Below are positions 37,735 to 40,027 of a stretch of DNA of 40,548 nt, one piece after another. The notes below the pieces were generated by a model. It was given only the letters and a program-made list of their open reading frames with translations. It ran no database searches and was not told where the DNA came from. Within the stretch, counting starts at the first letter, position 1. The number at the start of each line of letters is the position of its first letter. The position numbers and the translations under genes are program-made. Source of the stretch: an uncultured bacterium (GTDB taxonomy: Bacteria > Cyanobacteriota > Vampirovibrionia > Gastranaerophilales > Gastranaerophilaceae). The stretch is from contig CADBNI010000043.1 of NCBI GenBank assembly GCA_902795965.1, positions 1-40,548 of the forward strand, read 5' to 3'.

Positions 37735-37763
37735 ATTGTATTATCAAGGAAATTCAATGTCAA
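37735..37763 (-). promoter_or_regulatory. Promoter of the MFP-RND-TolC operon
   Basis: On the minus strand, perfect TTGACA (37763-37758), 17-bp spacer and TACAAT (37740-37735), about 35 nt before the adaptor start. Confidence 0.75.
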
Positions 37764-37851
37764 TAATTAAAGGTAAATGAAGTATGTACGAATTAAATAT
37801 TTCATATTTTAATAAATTATTTACAACAAAATAAAAATAAAAAATTGTACC

Positions 37852-38203
37852 GACCTTTACGTAGTGAGCAATAATTGTAAGCGAGACAACAACAAAGCGA
37901 ATTTGCGTACGGACGGAGCGAAGCGAGTCCGGGTAGCGAACAGATTGAGCATACTGTGACGAAGTCACATGTGCGAAATTCTGTGAGCGTGAAGCAAATT
38001 TAAGACGGCGGACATTGTCTGAACGATAAAAATTGATAGACCCTGAAACAAGTTCAGGGTGACACCGAGTGAGTTTGTCCGCCTCGGGTTGAGCCGTACA
38101 AATTATTAGCGAACGGAGTTCAGGTCGGGAGTTTCTTTGGTTTCTTTCTTGTCGGTACAAGAAAGAAACTGCGGGGTGCAGGGGCGGCATTAGCCCCGCA
38201 AAA
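37852..38203. repeat. Nested-palindrome dispersed repeat, copy 2
   Basis: The same framework as at 20654: outer arm CCGACC near 37853 and GGTCGG near 38123, the 77-bp module (38007-38083) differing from copy 1 at one base, a 13-bp hairpin (38140-38169, loop CGGT) and a GCGGGG...CCCCGC hairpin (about 38171-38200). Copy 2 carries an extra stretch of roughly 110 bp before the 77-bp module, with small hairpins TGTGAC-GAA-GTCACA and CGGAC...GTCCG, and lacks about 60 bp that copy 1 has after it. It ends 3 bp before the stop of the regulator gene. The 37764-37851 part shows nothing else. Confidence 0.85.
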
Positions 38204-38206
38204 TAT

Positions 38207-38530
38207 TTATGCATTCTTTTGCACTGCAATAATGATATCTTTAATCAACTGCAATTCAGACCTGCTCGACGTCTGCACAAGGTCATAAATTTCTTTGCGC
38301 AAACTGTCTTTATTATCAACATTCAAATTAAAAAAAGAATTGATATCTATATCAAGAATTTTAGAAATATTAACAAATGTTTCTATTGAGGGAAATGAAT
38401 TTCCGTTCTCAATCGTACACATATGACGTGGAGAAATATCTATTTTTTCGGAAAGCTGTTCCTGCGAAAATCCTTTTTCCAAGCGTAATTGACGTATTTT
38501 TTTACCGATAATTTTTTTGTCTAAATTCAT
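38207..38530 (-). CDS. XRE-type HTH regulator paired with prepilin D
   Basis: 107 residues. An N-terminal Cro/C1 domain (about residues 8-62: IGKKIRQLRLEKGFSQEQLS, EKIDISPRHMCTIENG, SFPSIETFVNISKIL) is followed by a 40-residue helical tail that may mediate dimer formation or bind another protein. It is larger than the other three paired regulators. GAGG lies five bases before the ATG. Divergent from the prepilin gene at 38660; repeated TGATA-N4-TATC(A/G) sites lie between the genes. The 3' end touches the nested-palindrome repeat. Confidence 0.9.
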   Translation of the reverse strand: MNLDKKIIGKKIRQLRLEKGFSQEQLSEKIDISPRHMCTIENGNSFPSIETFVNISKILDIDINSFFNLNVDNKDSLRKEIYDLVQTSSRSELQLIKDIIIAVQKNA

Positions 38531-39488: not shown

Positions 39489-39522
39489 GACCGGAAAATC
39501 TTTTCACGCCGGTCTTTTTTTT
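39489..39522 (+). terminator. Terminator of prepilin D
   Basis: GACCGG (39489-39494) pairs with CCGGTC (39509-39514), followed directly by eight T residues (39515-39522). Six of these T residues are also the outer end of the left inverted repeat of the DUF559 cassette. Confidence 0.88.
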
Positions 39523-39575
39523 ATGTAATAATTGTACCCCTCACCCTAACCCTCTCCCCGTTGGGGCGAGGGGAA
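39517..39575 (+). repeat. Left terminal inverted repeat of the DUF559 cassette
   Basis: 59 bp, perfectly repeated in inverse at 39948-40006. Outer part T6-ATGTAATAATTGTA, then a C-rich part CCCCTCACCCTAACCCTCTC and an inner hairpin-prone end CCCCGTTGGGGCGAGGGGAA. Confidence 0.95.
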
Positions 39576-39596
39576 TTTTTATGGTAATATAAGGAT

Positions 39597-39977
39597 ATGA
39601 ATTCTAAACACAATTACACAGATAAGGCATTAGTTAATGCCAGACAGTTACGAAAACAAATGACGGATTGTGAACAAAAATTGTGGTACTATTTGAGAAA
39701 CAGACAATTCGCAGGTTTAAAATTTACACGACAAGTACCTATTGGAAATTATATCGTTGATTTTTTATGCAAAGAAAAAAGATTTATTATTGAGCTTGAC
39801 GGTTCTCAACATATGTCAGAGGAGCAAGAAAGTCATGATAAAATAAGAGATGAATATTTAAAAAATTTAGGATATAAAATAATAAGAATTTATAATAATG
39901 AATTGTCGAATATTGATAATGTTTTGGAGTATATAAATCAAAATATTTTCCCCTCGCCCCAACGGGGAGAGGGTTAG
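39597..39977 (+). CDS. DUF559 (very-short-patch/restriction-like endonuclease fold) protein
   Basis: 126 residues of the DUF559 family. NARQLRKQMTDCEQKLWYYL and FAGLKFTRQVPIGNYIVDFL are conserved, and the catalytic residues of the endonuclease fold are visible as Asp55 (IVDF) and E66-L-D68-G in IIELDGSQH. Function of the family is not established; the fold suggests a DNA nickase or nuclease. The last residues (PSPQRGEG) and the stop codon are encoded by the right inverted repeat. An extended -10 (TGG-TAATAT, 39582-39590) ends 6 nt before the ATG, and AAGGA is too close to work as a ribosome site. Gene and repeats form one cassette between two terminators. Confidence 0.92.
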   Translation: MNSKHNYTDKALVNARQLRKQMTDCEQKLWYYLRNRQFAGLKFTRQVPIGNYIVDFLCKEKRFIIELDGSQHMSEEQESHDKIRDEYLKNLGYKIIRIYNNELSNIDNVLEYINQNIFPSPQRGEG

Positions 39978-40006
39978 GGTGAGGGGTACAATTATTACAT
40001 AAAAAA
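39948..40006 (-). repeat. Right terminal inverted repeat of the DUF559 cassette
   Basis: Exact reverse complement of 39517-39575 over 59 bp. It encodes the C-terminal end and stop of the DUF559 gene. Its outer A6 (40001-40006) is the U-tract of the fusA terminator read on the minus strand. Confidence 0.95.
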
Positions 40007-40027
40007 GAGAGGTTTTTCAACCTCTCT
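40001..40027 (-). terminator. Terminator of fusA
   Basis: AGAGAGGTT (40006-40014) and AACCTCTCT (40019-40027) form a perfect 9-bp stem with a 4-nt loop. On the minus strand it is followed by six U residues (40006-40001, partly shared with the stem base). ATTTTT on the other side may make it bidirectional. Confidence 0.88.

Follow-up and report, generated by a model that had tools for sequence, protein, structure and literature searches.

Near one end of the window, by which we mean the whole 40,548-nucleotide stretch of DNA analysed here, a single gene for a DUF559 protein lies between two long inverted repeats. The first-pass annotation had read this arrangement as a minimal mobile unit whose putative nuclease acts on its own palindromic ends. 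The locus raises the question of whether gene and repeat belong together and, if so, which of them moves the other: the DUF559 gene may spread the repeat, or may be carried by it.

The DUF559 gene and its inverted arms

The perfect 59-bp terminal inverted repeats around the gene were confirmed (Table 1), and they are the core of longer arms of 63 nt (39513-39575 and 39948-40010) that are 98% complementary, with one mismatch. The 20-mer CCCTCACCCTAACCCTCTCC picked out in the first reading has exactly two occurrences in the window, which form an inverted pair, against an expectation of 0 in 100 shuffles with up to three mismatches allowed. The open reading frame matches PF04480 (DUF559) with an E-value of 1.6e-38 (131 bits; gathering cut-off, 20.6). 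Its translation bears out that the right arm encodes the C-terminal PSPQRGEG and the stop codon TAG (39975-39977).

Table 1. Coordinates of the DUF559 locus and of its arms in the window
Feature	Position	Strand	Basis or remark
Left inverted repeat, 59 bp, perfect	39517..39575	+	Self-complementarity; 63-bp version from 39513
Left TM (boxC/PIT-type) unit	39537..39573	-	Sequence and repeat identity with PMC4666352 Table 1
Left TM unit, third strand (outside)	39537-39546		
Left TM unit, spacer TAA	39547-39549		
Left TM unit, stem	39550-39559 / 39563-39572		
DUF559 gene, 126 aa, putative EDxHD/Vsr-fold endonuclease	39597..39977	+	ORF, profile, relatives, predicted fold
Right inverted repeat, 59 bp, perfect	39948..40006	-	Self-complementarity
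Right TM unit	39950..39986	+	Sequence and translation
Right TM unit, stem	39950-39960 / 39964-39973		
Right TM unit, spacer TTA			
Right TM unit, third strand (outside)	39977-39986		
Outer repeat extension	39987..40006, left match 39517-39536	.	Adjoins fusA terminator; outside dispersed TM motif

Each arm is a composite of a conserved part of about 38 bp, A-CCCCTCACCC-TAA-CCCTCTCCCC-GTT-GGGGCGAGGGG, and an outer part of about 21 bp (TTTTTTATGTAATAATTGTAC) that does not belong to the dispersed repeat. A literature search with the string of the arm identified it as the G/C-rich intrastrand-triplex motif, formerly named PIT or boxC and now TM, or TMECO in E. coli (PMC4666352, where Hoyne & Maher 2002 is cited as an earlier source on these repeats). 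The motif consists of a pyrimidine arm, a loop, a purine arm, a short loop and a G-rich third strand, the short loop being TTA in type A and CCG in type B. There are 23 copies in E. coli K-12 and many in more than 260 genomes. In vitro, an E. coli oligonucleotide adopts a stable triplex fold; DMS footprinting in vivo did not reveal the triplex, and remnants of transposases or integrases were never found near the E. coli copies (PMC4666352).

The window arm has this same layout, with a G-rich third strand that is mirror-related to the stem. The E. coli string CCCTCGCCCCTTTGGGGAGAGGGTTAGGGTGAGGGG and CCCTCGCCCCAACGGGGAGAGGGTTAGGGTGAGGGG of the right arm are the same repeat sequence, and the stem loop is the sole difference between the right arm and TMECO no. 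7. The first-pass annotation had missed this identity, and also that an arm is not a plain palindrome but is built of a stem and a mirror-image third strand. As plain single-stranded DNA, the isolated arm has an only moderately stable fold (z -1.7), by a score that leaves the triplex out. The window repeat thus shares with the boxC/PIT/TM repeats its sequence and its dispersal, including in inverted pairs, but differs in having a nuclease gene between the arms, no gene having been linked to the known copies before, and in the diverged arm types recognised here. In the searchable literature, which leaves subscription papers largely outside, we found no paper connecting the TM repeat with DUF559. 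The link, by which standalone DUF559 genes and TM arms make up one unit across bacteria, is, as far as that literature goes, new here.

The inverted repeat does not stop at the border of the TM unit: it goes on outwards for about 21 bp in the window and is much longer in Legionella anisa (L172), at about 147 bp in all; few other loci show such an extension. It is as though flanking sequence on one side had been duplicated onto the opposite side. In the closest relative by fusA, the DUF559 element is absent from the fusA flank; this was the single flank compared, because that relative does not have the pilin gene at this position. In the window's genome, contigs C43 and C18 each contain a match to the C-terminal part of fusA, and these two matches are 96% identical, reflecting either a second EF-G gene or an assembly or strain mixture. 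An ORF on the minus strand of the window (37744-38229) that contains CHPELVSGS is probably spurious, and similar sequence occurs near fusA in relatives. We take CHPELVSGS to be the translation of another dispersed repeat, of the GTCATCCTGAACTTGTTTCAGGATC type.

Co-occurrence of gene and repeat

The genome of the window (85 contigs, 1.8 Mb) contains 25 matches to the motif at up to three mismatches, as compared to six for a control pattern, and solo copies are among them, as the first-pass annotation had anticipated. It also contains eight matches to the DUF559 profile, namely four full-length genes, three partial ones truncated where a contig ends, and a C-terminal match within a gene of another type. 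The DUF559 relatives and the genes nearby hint at a gut bacterium that is probably Gastranaerophilales-like. The full-length genes are flanked by similar hairpin arms whose sequence differs from element to element. Gene and ends form one unit, and the ends are dispersed as solo copies.

Within the genus, 17 of 33 genomes have a full-length DUF559 gene, each with at least four copies of the motif, and the 16 genomes without the gene have none or one (17/17 versus 0/16; Fisher 8.6e-10, the related genomes not being independent). More than one TM copy thus occurs in the genus only where a DUF559 gene is present. Beyond the genus but within its family and class, the link is weaker, with at least three copies in 9/12 versus 3/16 genomes (p=0.006), and for this one motif it is not significant in the rest of the phylum (12/32 versus 6/25 genomes, p=0.39). 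There, other variants of the arm flank the DUF559 genes; G112:C1:2794762-2795082, for example, has ACCCCACCCTAACCCTCCCC at 2794721 and 2795262. These counts bear on the idea that DUF559 is a free-standing homing gene, which entered the middle of a TM pair, of the kind seen in E. coli, that something else had spread as its target. That gene-less genomes of the genus keep at most one TM is not predicted by a pre-existing TM target.

To extend the comparison across phyla, we scanned GTDB species genomes once and obtained 80 DUF559 loci, from Gastranaerophilales, alpha-, beta- and gamma-proteobacteria, Desulfobacterota-type bacteria, Dadabacteria, Nitrospira, Binatia, FCPU426, Patescibacteria and others. 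Hairpins were defined as Y-loop-R structures of at least 8 bp with no more than one mismatch. Their density was 6.55/kb within 200 bp of DUF559 and 0.158/kb beyond 500 bp, and 70 of the 80 loci (87.5%) had a hairpin on both sides within 200 bp, as compared to 0.12% of random positions on the same contigs. In agreement with the earlier suggestion, repeat and gene therefore go together elsewhere. In the genus, control loci of HNH, Y1_Tnp and fusA remained at background (0.085-0.096/kb), whereas DUF559 loci reached 1.15/kb. The simplicity of the motif alone could invite the reading that G+C-rich hairpins lie beside a small gene by chance or composition; the near/far and random-position controls refute it, the shuffles, the genus co-occurrence and the control loci speak against it as well, and we give it virtually no probability.

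The two arms of one locus are far more alike than the arms of different loci (p=5e-25), and this specific match of left to right is a second point against a homing gene that entered a foreign pair. In 34 of the 35 loci whose arms could be scored, the two agree in their inverted sense, so that the inverted pairs predicted around DUF559 genes elsewhere were indeed found. The third strand faces the gene in 27 loci and faces away in seven, the outward orientation being that of the window copy and of the copies in priA and mpaA. A few elements (L154, L189) combine a type A with a type B end, as E. coli pairs do; a rule of one end of each type for DUF559 elements was rejected, given that only few are mixed. 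The downstream arm is entered by 32 of 95 ORFs, whose C-termini read, for example, SPHPNPLPQAGEG or PSPQPSPRRERE. The first-pass remark that DUF559 proteins end in PSPxxGEG-like peptides thus applies to this third of the ORFs, but not to the other two thirds, which stop short of the arm.

The TMs could instead be moved by another factor, for instance a RAYT/Y1 or DDE transposase, with DUF559 as cargo or as a host repair or restriction gene. Three genomes of the family with TMs but without a DUF559 gene would fit such a passenger role, as would the general instability to which TMs have been tied (PMC4666352). On the other hand, the HNH, Y1 and fusA loci are at hairpin background, no Y1 transposase (PF01797) was found in the window's genome, and among the 33 genomes of the genus just six have Y1_Tnp, including 4 of the 17 that bear TMs. 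A RAYT/Y1 transposase was rejected as the mover because it is absent from the window's genome and from most TM-bearing relatives. PADLOC returned weak matches or none and no convincing defence family, which argues against a host restriction role too, and we regard the passenger reading as rather improbable. That no transposase domain is present had been noted for this unit, and it holds more widely: the coding copies carry DUF559 alone, without any known transposase, and differ in this from a MITE or an insertion sequence.

Two further classifications were considered and rejected. A defence system was dismissed on the same PADLOC result, and a phage or plasmid origin on finding two phage records and 46 records of plasmid collections, several of them megabase-sized.

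Triplex complementarity of the arms and fold of the protein

Many different stem types are found among the arms, which have diverged, and the third strand has changed along with the stem. An antiparallel purine-motif triplex needs the mirror image of the purine stem, whereas an alternative duplex would need a direct copy. Among asymmetric stems, the third strand fits the mirror image better than the direct copy in 25 of 29 types (p=1e-4), and it fits its own stem better than the stems of other types (p=4e-19), although the stem types in both tests are not fully independent by descent. Examples are GGGGAAGG with GGATGGGG, GGGAGAAGG with GGATGAGGG and, at NGO0050 of N. gonorrhoeae, GGGAGAGAG with GAGAGAGGG. 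This covariation is evolutionary evidence that triplex complementarity, beyond the sequence itself, is kept.

The AlphaFold2 model of the window protein has a pLDDT of 90. In Foldseek, the predicted fold matched 3hrl (NGO0050; 1.5e-7), the homing endonuclease I-Bth0305I (3r3p; 1.6e-4) and, more weakly, Vsr (0.014), and a profile search likewise gave 3hrl (1e-38) and I-Bth0305I (1.8e-4). The residues E26, D55, E66, D68, H72 and R97 are invariant among 55 relatives. The fold and the catalytic residues are thus predicted to be of the EDxHD (Vsr-like) type, the equivalence of the active site being suggested by the invariance of these residues. Structures have been solved in the DUF559/YcjD family, which is common in bacteria; in the literature within reach we found no demonstrated activity or function for any DUF559 protein.

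Tentatively, the DUF559 elements may be autonomous mobile elements of a new class. Their enzyme, a nuclease of the Vsr/EDxHD fold and no transposase, would recognise triplex-folded ends, move itself and gene-less TMs, and be the origin of the boxC/PIT/TM repeats in hundreds of genomes, including that of E. coli; stem and third strand would covary because the nuclease reads the triplex. The link joins two orphans, namely the TM/boxC/PIT repeats, familiar from E. coli for a long time but lacking a known source of spread, and the DUF559/YcjD family. If it is true, the DNA triplex gains a natural protein partner, and both the source of the repeats and the function of DUF559 become testable.

Insertion sites, signs of mobility and putative derived copies

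Near-identical copies occur at different sites in one genome. At the ends of contigs C70 and C28 of the window's genome, two halves of elements are about 98% identical through the gene, the arm and some 35 more bases, after which the flanks diverge completely. One element of this genome (L002) and one of another species (L037) are 87% identical over 407 bp, and the similarity covers the element only. The alleles of priA, a host gene named by eye from translations, as were mpaA-like and ispE, are occupied, scarred or empty. Many relatives (L215-L225) have priA without an insert, and the empty site carries no TM; L214 retains a left arm in frame as a scar; and L001, L035, L036 and L044 contain a whole DUF559 element in frame. 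The empty sites that the first-pass annotation had proposed to look for in relatives thus exist. That reading would have fallen had the repeats not been kept elsewhere, or had all relatives been syntenic and without empty sites; neither was what we observed.

A good share of the copies are in frame. Of the 47 full-length copies in the genus, 14 lie in frame within larger genes, including priA, an mpaA-like carboxypeptidase and ispE, where by eye the inserts contribute the DUF559 domain and arm peptides only. The nuclease domain is thereby placed in frame in PriA and in the zinc carboxypeptidase (mpaA-like; L003, L047, L048 and L061); inspection by eye recognised no intein domain in these two host proteins. 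Solo TMs occupy the leaders of prepilins, where seven of the 25 motif copies in the window's genome lie in frame just before the FTLAE cleavage motif (L026, L027, L028, L014, L020, L031 and L033; for example MKKFIIKNLTPTLTLPHGGGKNCLMSIANLAIRERAKGFTLAEVLITLG). The added peptide would presumably be removed there by prepilin peptidase.

In the same priA linker, five other loci (L233, L234, L236, L237 and L242) have unrelated palindromic inserts, in frame, with the purine arm first (for example AGAAGATAGGAAGG...CCTCTTATCTTCC) and with no DUF559 element there. Two families of inserts thus share this linker as a hot spot.

The window locus is probably a copy of a minimal nuclease-driven mobile element that is present in many phyla and has the inverted TM pair as its ends. 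A single-stranded end, for instance on the lagging strand, would fold into the hairpin and its third strand. The DUF559 nuclease would then recognise its own ends and cut or nick there or at the target, and repair of the break would copy in the element or a gene-less TM, as with homing endonucleases and REP/RAYT. Tolerated sites would be intergenic terminators, prepilin leaders and protein linkers, and solo TMs as well as the paired TMs of E. coli would be non-autonomous derivatives. Recognition of the ends, folded single strands as the substrate and copying by repair are inferred. No target-site duplication was found at several E. coli TM loci or at the priA alleles, all of them old, decayed, collapsed or diverged, and the boundary of the element, for which no exact position was found in these alleles, is known to within a few bases. 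Other observations also weigh against this reading: the weak co-occurrence beyond the family, the three family genomes with TMs but no gene, the ORFs that stop before the arm, the mixed orientation of the arms and their direct arrangement in N. gonorrhoeae, the negative footprinting in vivo, the lack of a demonstrated activity for DUF559 proteins in the literature within reach, and the largely phylum-wise tree.

Sequences in the DUF559 tree mostly cluster with others of their phylum, and the priA copies and most mpaA copies group by insertion site, with modest support. The latter grouping would fit inheritance or homing at a site. It favours the homing gene introduced above, as do the existence of TM pairs without a gene and the fact that, among relatives with a solved structure and a known function, the homing endonuclease I-Bth0305I is the closest. 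Since the empty priA site has no TM for such a gene to enter, and given the points made earlier, we consider it unlikely. DUF559 resembles the EDxHD homing endonucleases in fold and in the persistence of copies at one site in priA and mpaA, but is not known to home, and differs in that no intron or intein was recognised here by eye, that the bracketing repeats also occur alone, and that several copies per genome lie at unrelated sites.

The sole DUF559 gene of E. coli K-12 is ycjD, with TMECO no. 9 at a distance of 168 bp. The gene ends with the codons ...S P S P stop, which fall within CACCCTCTCCCTGA, a stem belonging to a TM arm that has decayed. After this stem comes GCGAGGGGGCAGACCGAG, similar to the GGCGAGGGGACTGACCGAG found after a different TM copy of E. 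coli. YcjD (DUF559/COG2852) thus belongs to the same family and its gene ends in a TM arm, but a left arm is not recognisable. Many E. coli strains lack ycjD and have the eefRABCD operon at that place. The paired TMs of E. coli mostly read stem, third strand, gap, third strand, stem, an order that, by sequence layout, is that of an inward-type DUF559 element minus its gene. At several E. coli loci, TM alleles are present, absent or collapsed between the stem repeats.

Such collapse, a sign of cutting or slippage at stems, would also suit a domesticated DUF559 that removes or resolves extruded TMs and is autoregulated by the flanking TMs as terminators or mRNA hairpins. By this logic the gene would be kept where TMs are common because it resolves their structures, in line with the coincidence of gene and TMs and with the Vsr-fold repair nucleases among the relatives. 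We hold it to be very improbable, as it leaves unexplained both the gene-bearing in-frame inserts in priA, mpaA and ispE and the near-identical copies with different flanks.

In architecture the element resembles REP/REPIN sequences and their RAYT genes, the comparison already drawn in the first reading. In both, one nuclease gene lies between palindromic repeats that are also dispersed singly or in pairs, and gene and repeat co-occur. However, RAYT is a Y1/HUH enzyme whereas DUF559 has the EDxHD/Vsr fold, and triplex-forming ends and in-frame inserts within genes are found here. Because a Y1 enzyme is absent, the DUF559 unit is not a member of the REP/RAYT group, and the likeness is one of architecture. 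Rickettsia palindromic elements also sit in frame within protein-coding genes, with which they are translated, a likeness to the in-frame palindromes described above; to our knowledge they carry no gene, and they differ from the present elements, which have a nuclease and occur in other phyla.

The N. gonorrhoeae gene of PDB 3hrl, NGO0050, belongs to the same family and lies between two TM-type repeats that are direct, not inverted. Here (L252) the two copies are of a longer repeat, which contains the perfect mirror-type triplex motif CTCTCTCCCTGTGGGAGAGAGCTAGAGAGAGGG.
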